In this document: piece after piece, positions 39,166 through 51,334 of the stretch | Numbering within the stretch: position 1 is the first letter of the stretch | Layout of the letters: each line of letters opens with the position of its first letter | NCBI RefSeq assembly: GCF_025502585.1 | Contig: NZ_CP106679.1 | Location: forward strand, 2,325,501-2,389,500 | Source: Reichenbachiella agarivorans | GTDB taxonomy: Bacteria; Bacteroidota; Bacteroidia; Cytophagales; Cyclobacteriaceae | DNA: 64,000 bases | Direction of reading: 5' to 3' | Translations under genes and position numbers: made by a program | Notes under the pieces: model-generated | The model's input: only the letters and a program-made list of their open reading frames with translations | Databases searched by the model: none | What the model was told of the DNA's origin: nothing

Positions 39166-40263
39166 ATGGGGTTGAAATGTGGGATCGTAGGGCTACCAAA
39201 TGTTGGCAAGTCTACTCTTTTCAATGCGCTATCGAATGCTAAAGCCGAGGCAGCTAACTTTCCTTTTTGTACTATCGAGCCAAACGTAGGGGTCATCACA
39301 GTGCCAGATGAGCGACTCAAAATCCTTTCTGATTTGGTCAATCCACAGAAGGTACTCCCTACCGTGATAGAATTCGTAGATATTGCTGGATTGGTCAAAG
39401 GCGCCAGCAAAGGAGAAGGACTTGGAAATAAATTCCTTGCCAATATCCGCGAAGTAGATGCCATTGTCCATGTAATCAGATGCTTCAATGATGACAACAT
39501 CGTCCACGTAGATGGAGTGGTCAACCCTGTGTCTGACAAAGAAGTAATTGATACGGAATTGCAGATCAAAGACTTGGAATCTGTCGACAAGAAAATTGAT
39601 AAAAACATAAAGTTGGCAAAATCAGGCGATGCGAAAGTGAAAAACCTGATAGCAGTTTTGCAGGAATACAAAGCACTGTTGGAGTCTGGCAAAAATGCCC
39701 GTGAGTTGGAATTGACTGAGGAACGAAAAGCTGCCATCAGTGATATGCAACTACTCACTGTCAAGCCAGTGATCTATGCCGCCAATGTGGAAGAAAGCGC
39801 GATTTTGACAGGCAACTCCCATGTGGAGGCACTCAAGGCTGCTGTTGCAGATGAGAATGCACAAGTAGTGATGGTCAGTGCGGCCATCGAATCTCAGATC
39901 GCCGAACTAGAAGACTTGGAAGAAAAGGAGATGTTCCTAGGAGAATATGGGTTGAAAGAATCAGGGCTGGATAAGCTGATTAGAGCGGCTTATGAACTGC
40001 TAGATTTGATCACATATTTCACTGCAGGGGTAACAGAGGTACGTGCCTGGACTATCAAAAAAGGATGGAAGGCACCACAAGCAGCAGGCGTGATTCATAC
40101 TGATTTTGAGAAAGGTTTTATCAAGGCAGAAGTGATTAAAATCCCGGATTATCAAAAATATGGGTCTGAAAATGGCTGCAAGGACGCAGGTAAGCTGTCT
40201 ATCGAAGGCAAAGAATATGTCGTACAAGATGGCGATGTAATGCACTTTAGATTCAACGTCTAA
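39166..40263 (+). CDS. ychF: Ribosome-associated GTPase/ATPase YchF
   Basis: A 365-residue Obg-family P-loop protein, universally conserved, that binds ribosomes and prefers ATP over GTP in studied members. G1 GLPNVGKS is at residues 9-16, G3 DIAGLVKGASKGEG near 68, a coiled-coil insertion about 130-200, and a C-terminal TGS domain (TAGVTEVRAWTI, FIKAEVI, HFRFNV). The NVEE segment stands where NKxD is altered in YchF. Full length. Terminator follows. Confidence 0.96.
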   Translation: MGLKCGIVGLPNVGKSTLFNALSNAKAEAANFPFCTIEPNVGVITVPDERLKILSDLVNPQKVLPTVIEFVDIAGLVKGASKGEGLGNKFLANIREVDAIVHVIRCFNDDNIVHVDGVVNPVSDKEVIDTELQIKDLESVDKKIDKNIKLAKSGDAKVKNLIAVLQEYKALLESGKNARELELTEERKAAISDMQLLTVKPVIYAANVEESAILTGNSHVEALKAAVADENAQVVMVSAAIESQIAELEDLEEKEMFLGEYGLKESGLDKLIRAAYELLDLITYFTAGVTEVRAWTIKKGWKAPQAAGVIHTDFEKGFIKAEVIKIPDYQKYGSENGCKDAGKLSIEGKEYVVQDGDVMHFRFNV

Positions 40264-41699: not shown

Positions 41700-41820
41700 C
41701 TTCTCTACACTTCTATTAATTTAGTGAGCAGGGAATCCAGTCATATCACTTTTCTGGTTTTTAACCGAAAGCGAAATGAAATCATTACCTTTACACAAGG
41801 TCTTATTAGAACAAGATACT

Positions 41821-42036
41821 ATGAATGTAGAAACACTGAAACTAGGTCTTATTGAGCGATTGATGCGGATGCATAATACGTCTACCTTGCAACGAATGGA
41901 TCAATTGCTCACTCAGGTAGAAATGGAAACCAGAGCAGAAGAGTCTCGTCAAGCTATCAGCGAAGGAGATGTAATGTCCATAGAGGAGTTTAGACAAGAG
42001 AATCTAAAATGGGCGAAGGACAATTATACAAAATAG
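41821..42036 (+). CDS. Antitoxin of a ParE-type module
   Basis: A 71-residue acidic, helical protein (MNVETLKLGLIERLMRMHN, with MSIEEFRQENLKWAKDNYTK at its end). Bacteroidota antitoxins of this kind pair with ParE/RelE toxins: the N-terminal helices dimerise or bind DNA and the C-terminal helix wraps the toxin. The ATG at 41821 fits the usual family start; an upstream ATG at 41776 would add 15 residues. The end overlaps the toxin gene by 28 bases, a strong sign of a toxin-antitoxin operon. Confidence 0.75.
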   Translation: MNVETLKLGLIERLMRMHNTSTLQRMDQLLTQVEMETRAEESRQAISEGDVMSIEEFRQENLKWAKDNYTK

Positions 42037-42356
42037 TAATTGCCAAACCAGCCATCATCCGCTACCAAGAGACTGTTCTACTTTATCTCTACGATAACTT
42101 TACTTTTGATCGAGCTGCCGAGATAGATAAAAATATTATAGATAGGGCAGGTACATTATCCCACAAACCAGCTCGTGGCAGACGTGAAAAATATCTTTCA
42201 GAGGCCAAGGAAGATTTCAGATTCATCCTATACAAGGAAGCCAAGCATTTTGAAGTCAAGATCATATATTACATCAATGAAGAAGAATCCATAGTTTATA
42301 TCACTGACTTCTTCCCTACCAAAATGCACCCCCAAAGAATAAGCGATCATCATTAA
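42009..42356 (+). CDS. ParE/RelE-family toxin
   Basis: A 115-residue basic protein with a ParE/RelE-like fold: N-terminal KIVIAKPAIIRYQETVLLYLYDNF, the GRREKYLSEAKEDFRFILYKEAKHFEVKIIYYI core of strands (quoted in parts EDFRFILYKE and FEVKIIYYI), and a C-terminal VYITDFFPTK strand. Members of the family inhibit DNA gyrase (ParE) or cleave mRNA on the ribosome (RelE); which applies here is not visible. It overlaps the antitoxin gene by 28 bases. Confidence 0.8.
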   Translation: MGEGQLYKIVIAKPAIIRYQETVLLYLYDNFTFDRAAEIDKNIIDRAGTLSHKPARGRREKYLSEAKEDFRFILYKEAKHFEVKIIYYINEEESIVYITDFFPTKMHPQRISDHH

Positions 42357-42413
42357 AGGTAAATTGCAACTAGCTTGTTCAGAATGTTAAAATCCAAACC
42401 CAAGCGCATTAAA

Positions 42414-42446
42414 ATCAATCAAATTATAAATTGATCGTGTACGAAC
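42414..42446 (+). repeat. 33-bp direct repeat, right copy
   Basis: Right partner of 40947-40979; differs by two C-to-T changes. It lies 57 bases after the toxin stop. Confidence 0.9.
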
Positions 42447-42588
42447 ACTCTCTTAAATTGAAGCATATTTGTTACAATTGCACTTTACAATATTGCCGAA
42501 CTATTTGGAATCGTTCTAATTTCAATATTTGAATTTGTTCTACGTAGTTATTTGTAGGTATTTGGAATCAAATGCCTTGATATTTTTT

Positions 42589-42596
42589 TAGTTTTG
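42589..42596 (+). promoter_or_regulatory. -7 box (TAGTTTTG) upstream of acnB
   Basis: TAGTTTTG matches TAnnTTTG. Transcription from here would begin near 42603, run through the acnA relic and give acnB a leader of about 210 bases. Confidence 0.5.
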
Positions 42597-42664
42597 CGTC
42601 CCTTAATTAGACAACTGACAACCCATTTTTGAAGGTAAATTAATAAACGTAAATCACATACGTT

Positions 42665-42730
42665 TTGGCATTTGATCTCGATATGCTGAATACACACTGT
42701 TCTCATCTGGAGAATGGAGCCATATCAAGA
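42665..42730 (+). pseudogene. Decayed 5' end of a second acnA copy
   Basis: Twenty bases from 42666 (TGGCATTTGATCTCGATATG) are identical to the start of acnA at 49068. The ATG has become TTG; the reading MAFDLDM is kept and then diverges to about 60% DNA identity over the next 33 bases. The 24 bases before it also resemble the acnA upstream region. Downstream the reading frame no longer encodes aconitase. It is followed by acnB. Confidence 0.75.
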
Positions 42731-42815
42731 AGTAACAGCCAAGGGGTATTGTTTAATTTTTTGCAGGTAAATAGAAAAAGCATTCCTGCTTTTAACATTG
42801 ATAAGACATCAATAT

Positions 42816-45593
42816 ATGAACACTTACAACGATTACATCAAGGAGATCGAAGAACGAAAAGTTCAAGGACTTCATCCGAAACCAATTGAAGGAGCAGAAT
42901 TGCTCAGTGAAATTATTGCGCAAATCAAAGATTCAGGGAATCCATACAGAGAGGACTCTCTTCAATTCTTTATTTACAACACTATTCCTGGTACCACAAG
43001 TGCTGCTAGTGTAAAGGCAGAATTCCTGAAGGAGATTATTCTAGGTGAATCGGAGGTGGCTGAAATCACCCCAGCTTTTGCATTTGAGCAATTGTCTCAC
43101 ATGAAAGGTGGGCCGTCGATTGAGGTGTTGCTCGATCTGGCACTCGGCAGTGATGCAGCTATTGCCAAACAAGCTGCTGAGGTACTCAAGACGCAGGTGT
43201 TCCTATACGATGCGGACATGGGACGTTTGGAGGACGCTTTCAAAGCAGGAAATGCAATCGCCAAAGAACTGTTGGAGAGCTATGCGAAAGCTGAGTTCTT
43301 TACCCAACTACCAGAAGTAGAAGAGAAAATAGACATCGTCACTTTCATCGCAGGTGAGGGAGATATTTCTACGGATTTGCTATCTCCAGGTGCAGATGCA
43401 CACTCTCGATCTGATCGTGAGTTGCACGGTCAGTGCATCTTCGAACACAACAAAGAAAAGCAAAAAGAGCTTGCTGCGCTAAAAGCACAGCACCCTGACA
43501 AACGTGTCATGCTCATCGCTGAAAAAGGCACCATGGGCGTGGGTTCTTCCAGAATGTCAGGCGTCAACAACGTCGCTTTATGGACAGGTGTTCAGGCGAG
43601 TCCTTATGTTCCCTTTATCAATATTGCTCCGGTCATTGCAGGTACTAACGGCGTTTCTCCGATTTTCTTGACGACTGTGGGCGTAACTGGCGGTATCGGG
43701 ATTGATTTGAAAAACTGGGTCAAAAAGACAGATGCAGCAGGCAATGTCGTAGTAGATGCCAACGGGGAGCCAGTATTGGAGCAGGCGTATTCTGTACAAA
43801 CAGGTACGGTCTTTACAATCAATACGAAAGACAAAAAATTATACAAAGACGGCAAAGAAGTGATTGATATTTCAGCTTCGTTGACCCCTCAAAAAGTGGA
43901 GTTTATCAAAGCGGGTGGCTCTTACGCCATCGTATTTGGTAAGAAACTACAAACTGTTGCTGCTAAAACTTTAGGCATTGAAGCGCCTACGGTTTTTGCT
44001 CCGTCCAAAGAAATCTCTGTGGAAGGACAAGGTTTGACAGCAGTAGAGAAGATATTCAACAAAAACGCGGTTGGAACTACACCAGGTAAGATTTTGCATG
44101 CGGGTTCTGATGTACGTGTAGAGGTCAACATCGTAGGTTCTCAGGATACCACAGGTTTGATGACTTCTCAGGAATTAGAAGCGATGGCAGCTACCACCAT
44201 TTCACCGATTGTGGATGGCGCTTACCAATCAGGTTGTCATACGGCCTCAGTTTGGGACAATAAGTCTAAGGCCAACATCCCGAGATTGATGAAATTTATG
44301 AACGATTTCGGTTTGATCACAGCGCGTGACCCGAAAGACGTGTACCCAGCCATGACAGACGTGATTCACAAAGTGTTGAATGACATCACAGTCAGTGATT
44401 GGGACATTATCATTGGTGGTGACTCACACACACGTATGTCAAAGGGCGTTGCCTTTGGTGCAGATTCAGGGACAGTTGCTTTGGCCTTGGCTACGGGGGA
44501 GGCGACTATGCCCATCCCACAGTCAGTGAAAGTGACCTTCAAAGGGGAGATGAAGAGCTACATGGACTTCCGCGATGTGGTACATGCGACTCAACAGCAA
44601 ATGTTGAAGCAATTCGGTGGAGAGAACGTATTCCAAGGCAGAGTGATCGAGGTGCATCTCGGGACCTTGACTGCTGATCAGGCATTTACCTTCACGGATT
44701 GGACGGCAGAGATGAAAGCCAAAGCTTCTATCTGTATTTCGGAGGATGAGACTTTGATCGAGTCATTGGAGATTGCCAAGTCTAGAATCCAAATCATGAT
44801 CGACAAAGGAATGGACAACAAGGGGGCTGTTCTTCAAGGATTGATCGACAAAGCAAACAAGAGAATCAAGGAGATCAGATCGGGTGAGAAACCAGCATTG
44901 ACGCCTGATGCCAATGCAAAATATTTTGCAGATGTAGTGGTTGATTTGAATGAAATCATCGAGCCAATGATCGCCGATCCAGATGTCAACAACGCGGATG
45001 TGTCTAAGCGCTATACCCACGATACCATCCGACCACTGTCATACTACGGTGGAGACAAAAAGGTAGATCTAGGATTCATCGGATCTTGTATGGTTCACAA
45101 AGGGGACATGAAGATTTTGGCGCAAATGTTGAAAAACATTGAGTCGCAGCAAGGAAAAGTTGAGTTCAAAGCGCCTTTGGTGGTAGCGCCTCCTACTTAC
45201 AACATCGTAGACGAATTGAAAGCGGAAGGCGACTGGGAAGTATTGCAAAAATACTCAGGTTTCGAGTTTGACGACAATGCACCGAAAGGCGCAGCGCGTA
45301 CCAAATACGAAAAAATGCTGTACCTAGAGCGTCCGGGCTGTAACCTCTGCATGGGCAACCAAGAAAAGGCAGAGCCAGGTGATACCGTGATGGCGACTTC
45401 TACGCGACTATTCCAAGGACGAGTGGTGAAGGATTCTACGGAGAAAAAAGGAGAATCATTGCTGTCTTCTACACCCGTGGTAGTGCTATCAACCGTGCTG
45501 GGCCGTACGCCTAATTTGGCAGAATACGAAGCAGCAGTACAAGGCATCAACTTGACCAAGTTCAAGCCTTCGCACAAGCTATTGGCCAACTAA
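42816..45593 (+). CDS. acnB: Aconitate hydratase B
   Basis: Iron-sulfur enzyme of the TCA cycle interconverting citrate and isocitrate; AcnB enzymes also act in the 2-methylcitrate pathway. A 925-residue protein with the N-terminal HEAT-like domain (PIEGAELLSEIIAQIKDSGN), swivel domain (EKGTMGVGSSRMSGVNNVAL) and catalytic core. The [4Fe-4S] cysteines are in GSCMVHKGD (near 757) and RPGCNLCMGNQ (near 842 and 845). The open frame begins with TTG 42798, but ATG 42816 (MNTYNDYIKEI) is the natural start. Terminator follows. The window also has acnA 3.5 kb downstream. Confidence 0.96.
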   Translation: MNTYNDYIKEIEERKVQGLHPKPIEGAELLSEIIAQIKDSGNPYREDSLQFFIYNTIPGTTSAASVKAEFLKEIILGESEVAEITPAFAFEQLSHMKGGPSIEVLLDLALGSDAAIAKQAAEVLKTQVFLYDADMGRLEDAFKAGNAIAKELLESYAKAEFFTQLPEVEEKIDIVTFIAGEGDISTDLLSPGADAHSRSDRELHGQCIFEHNKEKQKELAALKAQHPDKRVMLIAEKGTMGVGSSRMSGVNNVALWTGVQASPYVPFINIAPVIAGTNGVSPIFLTTVGVTGGIGIDLKNWVKKTDAAGNVVVDANGEPVLEQAYSVQTGTVFTINTKDKKLYKDGKEVIDISASLTPQKVEFIKAGGSYAIVFGKKLQTVAAKTLGIEAPTVFAPSKEISVEGQGLTAVEKIFNKNAVGTTPGKILHAGSDVRVEVNIVGSQDTTGLMTSQELEAMAATTISPIVDGAYQSGCHTASVWDNKSKANIPRLMKFMNDFGLITARDPKDVYPAMTDVIHKVLNDITVSDWDIIIGGDSHTRMSKGVAFGADSGTVALALATGEATMPIPQSVKVTFKGEMKSYMDFRDVVHATQQQMLKQFGGENVFQGRVIEVHLGTLTADQAFTFTDWTAEMKAKASICISEDETLIESLEIAKSRIQIMIDKGMDNKGAVLQGLIDKANKRIKEIRSGEKPALTPDANAKYFADVVVDLNEIIEPMIADPDVNNADVSKRYTHDTIRPLSYYGGDKKVDLGFIGSCMVHKGDMKILAQMLKNIESQQGKVEFKAPLVVAPPTYNIVDELKAEGDWEVLQKYSGFEFDDNAPKGAARTKYEKMLYLERPGCNLCMGNQEKAEPGDTVMATSTRLFQGRVVKDSTEKKGESLLSSTPVVVLSTVLGRTPNLAEYEAAVQGINLTKFKPSHKLLAN

Positions 45594-45617
45594 TTCGCGG
45601 ATTCACGAAACAATAAT

Positions 45618-45650
45618 AAAGAGACTGCTCGATTCGGGCGGTCTTTTTTG
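45618..45650 (+). terminator. acnB terminator
   Basis: A roughly 10-bp stem (AGACTGCTCG pairing with CGGGCGGTCT, two G-U pairs) with a 3-nt loop and T6. Confidence 0.8.
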
Positions 45651-45674
45651 TTTTGGTGTGTTTTGATAGAATAA

Positions 45675-45691
45675 CTAAGTTACAAACTTAG
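45675..45691. repeat. Hairpin CTAAGTT-ACA-AACTTAG
   Basis: A perfect 7-bp stem with an ACA loop. It shares the apical GTTACAAAC with the hairpin at 46556-46578; read on the minus strand both have the apex TTTGTAA, as do those at 47170 and 47204 on the plus strand. Confidence 0.75.
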
Positions 45692-45696
45692 AACCA

Positions 45697-45795
45697 GTGC
45701 ATCCTCGTCACAGACCAGGACGATTGGGGGAATTTGTGGAGGAATTAGTCTTACTTGATATTCCATATAAAAGTATTCCAGCAAGTTTTAAATGA
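45697..45795 (+). other. Possible C-terminal gene fragment
   Basis: An open frame of 38 codons from 45679, preceded by a stop, with GTG 45697 as its only start candidate. It ends RPGRLGEFVEELVLLDIPYK and then SIPASFK, and looks like the tail of a real protein (codon use is protein-like), perhaps a cut-off end of a larger gene. I do not recognise the family. Confidence 0.35.
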
Positions 45796-45918
45796 ATGGA
45801 ATCAATTGATATTATTGACAATTTAATTGGGCTATACACAACTAAATCAGAAGCAGAAGACGCCATTCTAGAACTAGAATTGTTGAAATCAAAGATAGAA
45901 GATGAACTGGACAAATAA
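45796..45918 (+). CDS. Very small acidic helical protein
   Basis: A 40-residue frame: ATG at 45796, TAA at 45916-45918. The product is acidic and helical (NLIGLYTTKSEAEDAILELE region). It begins directly after the stop of the 45697 fragment and overlaps the start of the next gene at 45902 by 17 bases, as in translationally coupled small genes. Function unknown; it may be real or a leftover. Confidence 0.45.
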   Translation: MESIDIIDNLIGLYTTKSEAEDAILELELLKSKIEDELDK

Positions 45919-46384
45919 ATATAATAAAAGCAATCACATAAGTAGATTTATAGACTTGATACTTTTATTTATAATTTATACTATAATTCTTGAAGTTATA
46001 TTGTGGACACTGTCAGATAGTCTTATATCTAGTATATTCAAAATACTAATTCCAATAATTGTGTTGACACCAAGGATATTTGGAGCTATGAAGCGTGCTA
46101 AAAGTTATATACAATCTATAAGAATAGGAGAGGAATTTATTGAAATTAAGTACTATCAAAATAGTACAATGAAACAAATTAATTGCAGGAAGATTGATTT
46201 AGTGATTGTTTTTTATCCCGAATTTAAAAGTAAGGGCTATTGGGAAATATATGAACATGGTAAACTCAAATTATTACAACATGAAGCTTTTTTTGATTCT
46301 GATACTGATATAATTGAATTATTTGATGCTATTTCAAAGTATATGCCAAGTGATTCAATGGTGGACAAGTCAAGAATCCACTAG
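45902..46384 (+). CDS. Small membrane protein of unknown function
   Basis: A 160-residue protein. Two hydrophobic segments (about residues 16-36 and 43-61) are followed by a soluble C-terminal domain with beta-rich stretches (IRIGEEFIEIKYYQNSTMKQ) and FFDSDTDIIELFDAI. Residues 1-12 are polar. The gene is very AT-rich compared with acnB and acnA on either side, which suggests recent gain. No family recognised. It overlaps the preceding 40-codon frame. Confidence 0.65.
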   Translation: MNWTNKYNKSNHISRFIDLILLFIIYTIILEVILWTLSDSLISSIFKILIPIIVLTPRIFGAMKRAKSYIQSIRIGEEFIEIKYYQNSTMKQINCRKIDLVIVFYPEFKSKGYWEIYEHGKLKLLQHEAFFDSDTDIIELFDAISKYMPSDSMVDKSRIH

Positions 46385-46763
46385 GAGTAGTGCCCCATTT
46401 GAGCGTAGAATAGAAAATCACTAGGCGTAGTATTCACTACGCCTTCTTATCATTGGGAGGCAGAAAGTAGCATTTCCCTCCTGCGGCGGACATGTGCAAA
46501 TGCGTTTTTCATCAAAGAGACTATACTTGTTTTGCAGCAGAAGAAATGATATGAAAGGTGTAGTTACAAACTACACCTAGGTGGGGAAATCGGCGAGCTA
46601 GATATCAGCTATTTGTAATCGAGCGGATGCTCTTCTGATGGATGGGTCTTAGCGGACGCTACGACCAGGGGGGGTTGATTTTTATGGGTAAGTTTCAAGT
46701 AAGGAATAGCGCTACCATGCAAAGCATGGCGGGAACTGGGGTAAGAATATTAGATATTTAAGT
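46385..46763. other. 379-bp hairpin-rich noncoding region
   Basis: No gene found. It contains perfect short hairpins: AGGCGTAGT (46423-46444, ATTC loop), AGGTGTAGTT (46556-46578, ACA loop), GAGC/GCTC near 46622, TAGCG/CGCTA near 46652, and CCATGC (46715-46729, AAA loop). Such a dense set is unusual for a plain spacer and suggests repeated mobile hairpin elements or a structured RNA. Confidence 0.6.
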
Positions 46764-47117
46764 ATGAGAAGTACAAAGAATTTGTTTTTGATGTTGGTAA
46801 TTATAGTATTTAGTTCATGTGATTGGTTAATGAATAATCATCGATGTGATTATACAAAGGAGGTTTTTGAGAAGTCTATTAATTTTAGAATTGCTGATAA
46901 ATTTATTGACTCAACCAATCATTATTCAAAGACCGTAATTTATCTTCAGAAAGATGAGGTGAAAAAGTCTTATATTTTTGTTTTTGAGTACACAGATTTT
47001 TATTCAAGTTTAGAAGTTGGGGATAGTTTATTTAAAGAATCGGGGAGTTTAATTTTGAATCTTATAAGGGATAATAATGTTGTTCTTTCTAGAAAGCTAT
47101 ATTATGGCTGTGAATAG
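46764..47117 (+). CDS. Small lipoprotein of unknown function
   Basis: A 117-residue lipoprotein: signal peptide with lipobox VFSSC (Cys 19). The mature part is AT-rich in coding and contains two further cysteines (CDYTKEVFEKSI and the C-terminal YYGCE), which could form a disulfide. No family recognised. It is preceded by the hairpin-rich spacer and followed by repeat debris; such orphan lipoproteins are typical cargo of accessory islands. Confidence 0.65.
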   Translation: MRSTKNLFLMLVIIVFSSCDWLMNNHRCDYTKEVFEKSINFRIADKFIDSTNHYSKTVIYLQKDEVKKSYIFVFEYTDFYSSLEVGDSLFKESGSLILNLIRDNNVVLSRKLYYGCE

Positions 47118-47354
47118 TAAGATTGAATTGTTCTCCGCTTTGTAGTTCATGCCTCTACTATACCCCGCTGTTCGACTTTTGTAAAGTCGAACCTGCTATC
47201 ATAGGCTTTGTAAGCCGACTTTTCAAACTTGCTTTCATGGCACTGACCTACCCACAGGATCAGCCTATCAAATCCCTAACTGACCTATCGCCAACTTCAT
47301 CTCCGATACCAAGTCACCACCTACCGACACATTCTGTACATTCTCAAATTAAGA

Positions 47355-47394
47355 AAATTCTGATTCAGACAATTATTCGTCAGAATCAGAATTT
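47355..47394. repeat. Inverted repeat AAATTCTGATTC
   Basis: A 12-bp perfect stem (47355-47366 with 47383-47394) that continues after one mismatch with GAC/GTC and an 8-nt loop. To the right follow related heptamers AGAATTT, AGGATTT and AGAATTT. Confidence 0.75.
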
Positions 47395-47531
47395 ACAGGA
47401 TTTTAGAATTTGCTCAATGGTTAGATTCCCTCGTTTATCAGATTATACACCCGCATGGAGAACACATGATTCGCACTGTACCCCACTACCGAAGTGGGGG
47501 TAGCCACTTCACAAGTACCCCTCCCCACTTC

Positions 47532-47595
47532 AAAGATGAACCAGTTCGCCAAAAAGGCGAACTGTCGGACCTTTTTGGCGAACTGGTTCATCTTT
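47532..47595. repeat. 26-bp perfect inverted repeat
   Basis: Arms 47532-47557 and 47570-47595 are perfect complements, with a 12-nt loop. The arm contains GAACCAGTTCGCC and ends in AAAAAGG. Partial copies (CGGACCTTTTTG at about 47608; GGCGAACTCGTTCACC at about 48861) lie on both sides of the IS. Confidence 0.9.
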
Positions 47596-47682
47596 TTGGT
47601 GACTCGTCGGACCTTTTTGCTGAACTTGTAAGCTTCCCCAAAAACAGGACAGTTTAAAAATGAATAGATTTAAACTGTAGAA

Positions 47683-47949
47683 ATGAAGAAGAGTACATTT
47701 AGTCCCCAGCAAATCGTTAAGATTCTCAAGGAATTTGAACAAGGTAAATCGGCACAAGAGGTATGCCGCCATCATGGTATAAGCCAAGGCACGCTATATA
47801 ATTGGCGCAAGAAGTATGGCGGCATGGAAGCCTCAGACCTGAAGCGTTTGAAGGCTCTGGAGGAGGAGAATGCCAAACTAAAGCGTATGTATGCTGAGCT
47901 GGCATTGGATCACCAGATGGCCAAAGAGATCATAGAAAAAAAGCTCTAA
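47683..47949 (+). CDS. IS3-family OrfA (transposase HTH part)
   Basis: An 88-residue protein with an N-terminal helix-turn-helix of the transposase_8 type ([20 protein letters not shown], then [20 protein letters not shown]) and a C-terminal leucine-zipper-like helix ([18 protein letters not shown]). It binds the IS ends. Just before its stop lies A_AAA_AAG at 47937-47943, placed exactly in frame for -1 slippage into the orfB frame. Slippage would make a 381-residue OrfAB transposase, the active form in the IS3 family. Confidence 0.93.
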
Positions 47950-48017
47950 AGCCCTGTGATAAGCGTAGGATTAGTAAAGAGCTGCCTAAATACGGTATCA
48001 ACAGGGCGTGCCGTGTA

Positions 48018-48827
48018 ATGGATGTGTCTAGGTCGGTGATGTATTATAAACCCCAAAAGGATGACACCCCGATTGAAGTGGCTTTGAATGATAAGGCTGC
48101 ACAATTTCCCAGAGAAGGTTTTTGGAAGGCTTATGGCCGCCTTAGACTAGAGGGCAAGCATTGGAATCATAAAAGGGTATATAGGGTTTACAAAGCTCTG
48201 GGGCTATCCTTAAGGGTCAAGAAGAAGAAACGTCTCCCCGCTAGGTCCAAGCAGCATCTTGAGGCTCCGAATCACCTTAATCATACATGGTCAATAGACT
48301 TTATGCAGGATAGATTGGTAAATGGTCGAAAAATCAGAAGTTTCAACGTAATGGATGATGCAAACAGAGAGGCATTGCATATAGAAGTAGATTTTTCACT
48401 AAAAAGCAGTCGAGTGATCTGGGTACTGAACCACCTGATCAATAGGAGAGGAAAACCAAAGCGCATCAGGATGGATAATGGGCCAGAATTCATAGCCTTA
48501 ATGACCCAAACATGGAGTTATGCGCAAGAAATTGAGTTTTGTTACATCCAACCAGGCAAGCCCACGCAGAATGCTTACATCGAAAGGTTCAATGGCTCTC
48601 TGCGCCGGGGCGTGTTTGATGCGTTTGTATTTGAGCACATCGACCAGGCCAGAGAAGAAGTAGATAAGTGGATGGAAGATTACAATAACCATCGCCCGCA
48701 TGATAGCCTTGGTAGGATTACTCCAAAAATGTTCGGAGAAAACCTTCAGAGAGTCCAAGAGGGTACCCTCTTGGACTCTCTGAAGGTTGAAGTATTAGAC
48801 AATAATTATAAATTACAGCTGTCCTAA
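48018..48827 (+). CDS. IS3-family OrfB (DDE transposase part)
   Basis: A 269-residue catalytic part with the rve-type DDE domain: first Asp in WSIDFMQD, second in [10 protein letters not shown], Glu in [13 protein letters not shown], then [15 protein letters not shown]. The frame is in -1 relative to orfA and stays open upstream of ATG 48018 back to the A7 slip run, as expected for an OrfAB fusion. Its stop lies inside the right terminal repeat. A perfect 48-bp palindrome spans its last codons (48741-48788). Confidence 0.95.
48741..48788. repeat. Perfect 48-bp palindrome inside orfB
   Basis: Two 24-bp perfect arms meet at GGGT/ACCC with no loop, within the coding sequence just upstream of the transposase stop. 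No T-run follows. Confidence 0.95.
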
Positions 48828-48843
48828 AAATGGGAAGCTTACA

Positions 48844-49066
48844 AACTGACTCGCCTCTGAGGCGAACTCGTTCACCTTTTTGGTAGGTGTACTCATCTAT
48901 GAAGTGGGGGGATGAAGTTAAAAGCGTAACTTGAAAGAAATTCCTCAGAAACAAGTCGTCAGCTGGGTTTGTTGACAATATCCTCGTGCTTATATTCATA
49001 ACTACTTTAATAAGTACTCGTTTAATCTTAACTTAGAGTATTAACAGAAAGCAAAACACACATTCT
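48844..49066. other. Spacer between IS and acnA
   Basis: Starts with repeat-island remnants (CGCCTCTGAGGCG hairpin near 48854; GAACTCGTTCACC), then the inverted CCCCACTTC at 48901, then 150 bases leading to acnA. The 24 bases before the acnA ATG resemble those before the acnA relic at 42665. No gene. Confidence 0.6.
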
Positions 49067-51334
49067 ATGGCATTTGATCTCGATATGATAAAAAAAGTCT
49101 ATTCTCAAATCGGGGATAGAATCAACAAAGCGAAAAAATTGACAGGGAAACCATTGACCCTTTCGGAGAAAATCCTCTATTCTCACCTCTATGATGGAGG
49201 GCCGACTGAGATCTACAAGAGAGGAGAGTCTTATGTAGATTTTGCACCAGACCGGATCGCCTGTCAGGACGCCACCGCACAGATGGCACTCTTGCAGTTC
49301 ATGCAAGCAGGCAAGCCTCAAGTAGCGGTCCCCACTACCGTACACTGTGACCACTTGATCCAAGCCAAAGTAGGTGCAGACGTCGATTTGCAAAATGCAC
49401 TCAATACCTCCAATGAAGTGTTCAATTTCTTGGATTCCGTGTCTAGCAAGTATGGAATAGGCTTCTGGAAACCAGGAGCAGGGATTATTCACCAAGTGGT
49501 GTTAGAAAATTATGCATTCCCGGGAGGGATGATGATCGGGACAGATTCACACACCGTCAATGCTGGCGGTCTAGGGATGATCGCGGTAGGAGTCGGCGGA
49601 GCGGATGCAGTGGACGTCATGGCTGGTATGGCTTGGGAGTTGAAATTCCCTAAGTTGATCGGAGTGAAATTGACTGGCAAACTCAACGGATGGACATCTG
49701 CCAAAGATGTGATCTTGAAAGTAGCAGGCATCTTGACTGTCAAAGGCGGTACGGGAGCAGTCGTAGAATACTTCGGCGAGGGAGCTAAAAACCTGTCTTG
49801 TACGGGCAAAGGCACCATCTGCAACATGGGCGCAGAGATTGGCGCGACCACTTCTACATTTGGTTACGATGAGTCAATGGAGAGATACCTCAGAGCGACT
49901 GACCGAGCGGAGGTAGCCGATCTAGCCAACACGATCAAAGAACATTTGACAGGGGATGACGAGGTCTATGCTAATCCAGAAAAATATTTTGATCAAGTGA
50001 TAGAAATCGACCTGTCTACTTTGTCTCCACACGTCAACGGTCCGTTCACGCCAGACTTGGCAACACCAGTTGCAGAAATGAGAGAAAAGGCCACCGCCAA
50101 TGGATGGCCAACCAAAGTGGAATGGGGATTGATTGGATCATGTACCAACTCTTCGTACGAAGACATGTCTAGAGCGGCATCCATCGTAGAGCAGGCTGTA
50201 GCGCATGGCATCAAACCCAAAGCTGAGTTTGGGATCAACCCAGGCTCTGAGCAAGTGAGATACACCATCGAAAGAGACGGAATCATCAGGACCTTTGAGA
50301 AAATGGGAACCAAGGTATTTACCAATGCATGTGGACCCTGTATTGGTCAGTGGGCGAGAGCAGGTGCAGACAAACAAGAGAAAAACACCATCGTTCACTC
50401 TTTCAACCGAAATTTTGCCAAGAGAGCGGATGGCAATCCCAATACGCATGCGTTTGTGACCTCACCAGAGATGGTAGCAGCCATCGCCATTTCAGGAGAT
50501 TTGGGTTTCAATCCTATCACAGATACCTTGACCAATGCCGCAGGTGAGCAGGTAAAATTGCACCCTCCTAAAGGGGACGAGTTGCCCAGCAAGGGATTTG
50601 CAGTGGAGGACGCTGGGTACAAAGAACCAGCTGCCGATGGATCCAAAATCCAAGTAGCCGTAGACCCAGATTCAAAGAGATTGCAGTTATTGGAGCCCTT
50701 CCAACCTTGGAATGGAGAGAATATCACGGGAGCCAAATTGCTGATCAAAGCGCAAGGCAAATGCACCACCGATCACATTTCTATGGCGGGTCCATGGTTG
50801 AGATTCCGAGGGCATTTGGACAACATTGCCAACAATACCCTGACAGGAGCGGTCAACGCCTTCAATGGTCAGACGGACAAGGTAAAAAGCCAATTGGATG
50901 GTTCTTATGGCGGTGTGCCTGATGTACAAAGAAAGTACAAAGCGGCAGGTATTCCGACCATAGTGGTGGGGGATCAAAATTACGGTGAAGGTTCTTCTAG
51001 AGAGCACGCAGCGATGCAGCCACGACATTTGGGTGTGATTGCTGTTTTGGTGAAGTCTTTTGCCAGAATACACGAGACCAATTTGAAGAAGCAAGGCATG
51101 TTGGGTTTGACCTTTGCCAACGAAGCAGACTATGACAAAATCCAAGAAGATGACACATTTGATTTTGTGGATTTGAAAGATTTTGCTCCAGGTAAGCCTT
51201 TGACAATCATTGCAAAACATGCTGATGGATCACAAGATACCATCATGGCAAATCATACATACAATGCGGGACAAATCGGTTGGTTCAAAGCTGGCTCAGC
51301 CTTGAATCTTATCAAATTGGAAAACAACGCTTAA
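49067..51334 (+). CDS. acnA: Aconitate hydratase, mitochondrial-type (AcnA class)
   Basis: A 755-residue aconitase of the mitochondrial type (shorter than AcnA/IRP of E. coli, unlike AcnB in domain order). Key parts: HCDHLIQA near 104, [13 protein letters not shown] near 163, the Fe-S cysteines in [10 protein letters not shown] (near 358) and [10 protein letters not shown] (near 421 and 424), and the C-terminal swivel with [22 protein letters not shown]. It catalyses the same citrate-isocitrate step as AcnB 3.5 kb upstream. In other bacteria such pairs differ in oxygen sensitivity and expression; which applies here is not visible. Confidence 0.95.

Follow-up and report, generated by a model that had tools for sequence, protein, structure and literature searches.

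In the genome of Reichenbachiella agarivorans the gene acnB is preceded by a decayed copy of the first codons of acnA, and the complete acnA gene lies further downstream in the same orientation. We studied this locus in a window of 64,000 nucleotides (the whole stretch of DNA that was analysed) and compared it with the aconitase loci of other Bacteroidota. In the reading that we consider quite likely, acnB and a spacer have become lodged between the promoter and first codons of acnA on one side and the complete acnA on the other, and the relic before acnB is the scar of this arrangement. The promoter-acnA arrangement with a lodged acnB is well supported; the route by which acnB would have entered or left is one that we infer.

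The 20 nucleotides at 42666-42685 are identical to those at 49068-49087, the first codons of acnA, and a TTG codon (42665-42667) stands where acnA has its ATG (49067). Local alignment of positions 42639-42718 with 49040-49120 gave a score of 67 with a single 1-nt gap, and none of 2000 dinucleotide shuffles reached this score (maximum 39). A profile of acnA 5' ends from the genus carries the match, which covers acnA nt 2-83, to 42742, and a looser alignment pushes its limit to about 42772. The match is firm in its downstream flank; the upstream flank (42639-42664), rich in A and T, matches weakly. The whole genome (one contig, 4,474,154 nt) was then searched with the acnB leader and with the 20-mer. 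Besides itself, the leader matched the 5' end of acnA only (E 7.5e-5, 75%), and the 20-mer, with up to 3 mismatches allowed, gave four sites, two exact and two with 3 mismatches. The original prediction is borne out in its description of the 20-base match, the TTG start, the acnA orientation, the position of acnB before an intact acnA and the inclusion of the relic in an acnB leader of roughly 210 bases, for which we predict about 215 nt. Many unrelated copies of the 20-base match had been named as the mark of a dispersed repeat, and the two exact sites are those already mentioned. By these comparisons the relic is a genuine remnant of the acnA 5' end, i.e. a pseudogene fragment, with a homology beyond chance. 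The features of the locus are listed in Table 1.

Table 1. Coordinates of the aconitase locus and its surroundings in the window
Feature	Position	Strand	Remarks
Predicted -7 promoter box TAGTTTTG	42589..42596	+	Transcription start predicted at about 42601; sole TAnnTTTG on the + strand of 42201-42850
acnA 5' relic, about 27 codons by profile	42665..42742	+	Firm core 42665-42718; loosest limit about 42772
Stretch like the pre-acnB DNA of other genera (putatively acnB's own untranslated stretch)	42780..42815	+	By profile and by eye
acnB (aconitate hydratase B), start MNTYNDYIKEIEER	42816..45593	+	Aconitase_B_N, Aconitase_2_N and Aconitase domains
acnB-acnA interval	45594..49066	+	Holds other ORFs and an IS3-type element (ORFs, Pfam domains)
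Intact acnA	49067..51334	+	No TAnnTTTG box in the preceding 200 nt
ychF	39166..40263	+	Precedes acnB in six genus members; in G003 directly followed by acnA

Some further elements were noted around these genes. Two small overlapping ORFs between ychF and acnB (41776-42356) are toxin-antitoxin-like by size and order only, and a Pfam search with them gave no matches. The IS3-type element between acnB and acnA (47683-48827) carries HTH_Tnp_1 and rve domains. A perfect inverted repeat with 26-nt arms forms a hairpin (47532-47595) before this element, and another with 24-nt arms (hairpin 48741-48788) lies within the 3' end of the second transposase ORF.

Eight genomes of the genus were compared (G000-G007, G000 being that of the window). 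Seven of them share the gene order permease - ychF - (acnB) - acnA - greA - HIT - WD40 - divIVA - folB, with acnB between ychF and acnA in six; in the seventh, G003, acnB is absent and acnA directly follows ychF. The remaining genome, G006, has acnB about 144 kb away from ychF, and no long acnA match was found in it. The clade of the window genome (G000, G002, G004, G007) carries additional DNA between ychF and acnB, and its acnB-acnA gap measures 1.5-12.8 kb; the gap is 154 nt in G001 and G005. The acnB leaders of the six members share a promoter-like box, and the acnA remnants that follow it are in the same register. The remnants are strong in G000 and G001 and weak, when taken singly, in G002, G004, G005 and G007. 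Since 2-98 of 500 shuffles reach the single relics of G002, G004 and G007, depending on the acnA used, support in these three comes from the shared register.

The acnB-less G003 permits a direct comparison of leaders. Its acnA leader aligns with the acnB leader of G001 (128 of 158 columns identical, score 162, ending at +29 of acnA) and with that of G005 (122 of 150, score 157, ending at +13), against shuffled maxima of 34 and 36, respectively. The acnA leaders of the six acnB-bearing members do not match the G003 leader when the coding part of the latter is left out (scores 16-23). In the window clade the match of the acnB leader to the G003 acnA leader is marginal for G000 (34 versus a shuffled maximum of 31) and G007 (37 versus 36), and lies under the shuffled maximum for G002 and G004. 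The acnB frame itself opens on the first codons of acnA in G001 and G005, whose acnB N-termini read MALDLDMLKK-HYNDYIEEIEER and MAIDPQ-YNDYIKEIEER.

Flavobacterium served as an independent test. Among 121 genomes, 75 contain acnB and 114 contain acnA, and the loci of 53 of the 75 acnB-bearing and 40 of the 46 acnB-less genomes were compared, 38 of the latter 40 having enough upstream DNA. A 317-aa upstream gene family, which we take to be MoxR-like, is shared by both kinds of locus: it precedes acnB in 41 of 60 acnB-bearing loci, a set that includes 7 from other genera, and in 24 of the 40 acnB-less loci it precedes acnA. When the acnB leaders were compared with the 38 acnA leaders of acnB-less species, 48 of 53 scored above the best of 53 shuffled leaders (54). 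For 44 of these 48 the alignment stops at -15 to +40 of the acnA ATG, limits which were chosen after inspection of earlier Flavobacterium results. The 230 nt before acnA in the same acnB-bearing genomes (52 tested) did not exceed 41 and so stayed below the 54 of the best shuffled leader. In locus L316 the leader and first four codons are almost identical to those of acnA in L233 and run straight into acnB. The open acnB frame starts with MA, acnA's own start, in 11 of the 53 loci; several of the 11 also have a downstream in-frame Met (MN..) that could be the actual start. Both in clade X of the window genus and, as a separate group, in Flavobacterium, the alignments show lone acnA and acnB to have the same leader.

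The Bacteroidota -7 promoter box has the consensus TANNTTTG/TAHHTTTG (PMC9723704, PMC6847099), and relative to that consensus the third base of the box in the window, a G, is disfavoured. The box is aligned in seven leaders of the genus (its G001 version is TTATTTTG). G003 has TAnnTTTG at -83 of acnA, and in the six acnB-bearing members the 200 nt preceding acnA lack it. In Flavobacterium, 45 of 53 acnB leaders of 180 nt carry TAHHTTTG, against 9.0 expected from shuffles, and 34 of 38 leaders of lone acnA (120 nt) do so, against 4.1 expected; the 120-nt stretches before acnA in acnB-bearing species contain it in 2 of 52 cases (5.4 expected). Among 80 named loci, 61 have acnA within 500 nt after acnB, and the box is found in 47 of the 61 leaders of these tight pairs (330 nt, 17.4 expected) and in 2 of their 61 spacers (8.0 expected). 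Thirty-eight of the 61 spacers contain a terminator-like simple hairpin, a count made without control. The box in the window is predicted to be the former promoter of acnA, now that of acnB. According to this reading acnB would have taken over the acnA promoter, and the displaced acnA may now depend on read-through or on a promoter of another kind.

Traces of acnA before acnB were also found beyond the window genus. An acnA start profile reached at least 4 bits in 11 of 91 acnB leaders, versus 0 of 910 shuffles, 0 of 91 reverse complements and 0 of 89 stretches further upstream. With a profile of acnA codons 1-115, 15 of the 91 leaders scored above 0 bits in the forward direction, versus 1, 1 and 4 in three controls; this difference vanished at lower scores. 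When a control segment of acnA was used instead, 3 forward hits stood against 6, 1 and 0. Two Aquimarina species retain about 190-260 nt of acnA before acnB, the leader scores being 350 for L132 and 309 for L147, against 92 and 104 for the next best segment of their own acnA. Fainter traces, each weak alone, were seen in Formosa, Tenacibaculum, Sporocytophaga, Olivibacter, Chryseobacterium and G052. In these and in the Aquimarina remnants, acnA codon 95 falls about 26-61 nt before acnB residue 8, which was the origin of leader measurements (in the window an I at 42837, 21 nt 3' of the acnB ATG at 42816). Other registers are found in the window genus, in L105, L163 and L099 and in several Flavobacterium leaders. 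When each leader was compared with its own acnA, the first 300 nt ranked first of 7 segments in 20 of 74 loci (10.6 expected), a modest excess. By eye, several families share a stretch like TGCCTTTAACATTGAAAANACTTCTATT at about 10-40 nt 5' of the acnB start; this recurring stretch, TGCCTTTAACATTGAAAA, resembles the acnA start, through ancestry or chance.

A class-wide replication with 25 new leaders gave 5 with acnA traces by eye, namely fused starts in L209, L213 and L217 and remnants in L204 and L211. The start profile reached 4 bits in 1 of the 25. The longer acnA profile was not above controls at 0 bits (1 forward versus 2 reverse-complement hits), and above -1 bit it gave 7 versus 2, 2 and 0, an unrelated acnA segment giving 4 forward versus 1, 1 and 1; as a replication these profile results fail to convince. 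When up to 3 kb of DNA before acnB were searched by tblastn with acnA proteins, the sensitivity was low: one match was credible (L132, E 0.072), and four others, with E values of 0.07-0.38, were chance-like.

The remnants decay quickly. The relics of L132 and L147 are 76% identical (75, 77 and 76% by codon position), and the acnA genes of these two species are 97% identical. The even distribution of differences over codon positions indicates decay without coding constraint, as tested in Aquimarina. A refreshing of relics by gene conversion was also considered and is not supported in Aquimarina by the same two values. The relic of a third Aquimarina, L131, is near noise (42% to its own acnA). 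At such a rate of decay the relics should no longer be recognized in different families, which argues for repeated events or renewal. A fresh, intact long repeat was not found in 129 leader-acnA comparisons, the best being 115 of 165 (L132).

In a class-wide search acnB was found in 26 of 296 genomes (E 1e-150, own genome included), and its distribution is thus patchy. Trees were built from 39 acnB and 41 acnA rows and, separately, from 32 loci with both genes. On the acnB tree of the 32 loci, the AU test rejects the 17 Flavobacteriaceae, a taxonomic family but one picked after the 39/41-row trees had been seen, as a single clade (p-AU 3.6e-8). On the acnA tree of the same loci the 17 form one side of a branch (support 93, not starred). 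Mapped on a tree of the upstream gene, which covers 64 loci and has 11 starred ones among its 61 inner branches, acnB presence requires at least 7 changes. The acnB of the window genome groups with that of G001, a member of the other clade (100/100). The flanking genes disagree with this grouping, and an exchange of acnB inside the genus is thus indicated. In L084 (Aestuariibaculum), a candidate for transfer, acnB is closest by identity to that of G052, of the window's order (90%), and acnA to that of Mariniflexile (93%); unlike the identity ranking, the acnB tree puts L084 beside a MAG of the Flavobacteriales (support 87).

Flavobacterium and G003 offer clean acnA loci that lack acnB, and the direction of the change can be argued both ways. 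A tree of seven flanking genes places G003 as sister to G005 (99/99) inside an otherwise acnB-bearing clade, so that the simplest account is a loss of acnB in G003 that restored the promoter-acnA order. The acnB-less Flavobacterium loci L226 and L238 are likewise nested among acnB-bearing ones (support 86). Such placements favour an alternative in which each genus started from an old acnB-acnA pair and lone acnA arose only through deletion of acnB between relic and acnA; in the clade of G003 one loss is more economical than several gains. This alternative is a matter of direction and is compatible with a lodged acnB. It is opposed by the conflict between the acnB tree and family taxonomy, which makes gains by transfer probable too, and by the fast decay of the remnants, which makes their survival from one very old event hard to explain. 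We take it as a serious possibility that nevertheless falls short of being probable.

Another explanation lets acnB come with a donor acnA and replace part of the resident gene, by homologous recombination on one side and illegitimate recombination on the other. Such insertions have been proposed for other genes, as homology-facilitated illegitimate recombination in type VI effector displacement in Vibrio (PMC5361080). The close succession of acnB and acnA in the 61 tight pairs also agrees with it, as does the lower identity of the acnA 5' end in L278/L255 (67-70% versus 80% overall) and in G005 versus G003 (66% versus 79%), which could be a hint of foreign 5' ends. However, a crossover inside acnA was looked for in the genus and in 11 acnB-bearing/acnB-less Flavobacterium pairs, and no clear mosaic was seen; most of the 11 pairs have no identity step along acnA, and acnA retains its family grouping. 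We regard a donor acnA as unlikely.

The original prediction had attributed the relic to a tandem duplication of the acnB-acnA pair followed by deletion, which would have removed the first acnB together with most of the first acnA. This, too, would place a correctly oriented acnA 5' end ahead of acnB, but it needs extra deletions and does not predict that the acnB leader equals the lone-acnA leader of acnB-less relatives in both the genus and Flavobacterium. The remnant in the acnB leader stands; pair duplication as its cause is disfavoured as highly improbable. A regulatory role for the relic, also put forward at that time, fared no better. A conserved regulatory leader or leader peptide of acnB might be seen in the TTG-started frame, which runs open from the relic beyond the acnB start, in a 45-codon ATG frame ending 5' of acnB in G004, and in the short MAF frames upstream of acnB in some Flavobacterium. 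Yet the short frames before acnB vary in length and register among relatives, with no conserved leader-peptide frame, the Aquimarina relics differ evenly over codon positions, and an Rfam covariance-model search found no family above threshold (single match 17.9 bits, threshold 40). Such a role is very improbable, and for regulation it is probably the captured promoter that matters, not the relic. Chance or a dispersed repeat can be practically dismissed given the two exact 20-mer sites, the shuffle tests, the start-profile controls and the Flavobacterium leaders.

For the lodged acnB we propose the following course. From a starting arrangement of promoter and acnA, a unit of acnB and a short spacer would end up between the promoter with the first acnA codons and the complete acnA, leaving the acnA 5' end in two copies, the relic upstream of acnB and the intact gene. 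The unit is flanked by these two copies as direct repeats on the same strand, now decayed. With less certainty, homologous recombination through the two copies may account for both gain and loss of the unit; it would plausibly allow acnB to enter an acnA locus under the promoter of that locus and to leave again without a scar. A more tentative extension, which we think doubtful, is that acnB and its spacer are an integrase-free mobile unit with the duplicated acnA 5' end as attachment site. Recombination between the two copies would loop out the unit, and the circle, or a linear fragment, would enter the acnA of another bacterium by ordinary homologous recombination, capturing the host acnA promoter and rebuilding the flanking repeat. 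If true, this would account for the patchy and transferred occurrence of acnB among Bacteroidota, beside an acnA that keeps to the family, and for remnants that stop close to one and the same acnA codon (about 95) in several distant lineages.

Unconventional circularizable structures are segments flanked by direct repeats that leave as circles without a recombinase of their own. The acnB locus resembles them in that acnB and a spacer lie between two copies of one sequence and that clean acnB-less loci occur; it differs in that the 5' end of a neighbouring gene serves as the repeat and that this repeat is decayed in the cases seen. Promoter capture by gene insertion is a general evolutionary process, and here, too, the inserted acnB comes behind a resident promoter; unlike the general case, the same gene meets the same target gene in several families of one phylum. 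In the process proposed for Vibrio effector displacement (PMC5361080), a new gene is likewise added at a resident homologous anchor, the old gene is shifted downstream and traces are left, whereas acnB is a housekeeping gene that seems to have taken over the promoter of the resident gene, in some species together with its start codon, while acnA stays intact. Among the titles searched in an open-access library of papers, none concerned acnA remnants before acnB.

The locus would be a readable fossil of a second isoenzyme entering central metabolism. Its entry point would be the start codon of the first isoenzyme, behind the promoter of the latter, which is itself pushed to a promoter-poor position. 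It is predicted that acnB is expressed from the old promoter of acnA and that acnA expression is changed. There is also a warning, since some acnB start codons in Bacteroidota would be those of acnA. Finally, the arrangement suggests a possible way for a core metabolic gene to spread without the machinery of mobile elements.
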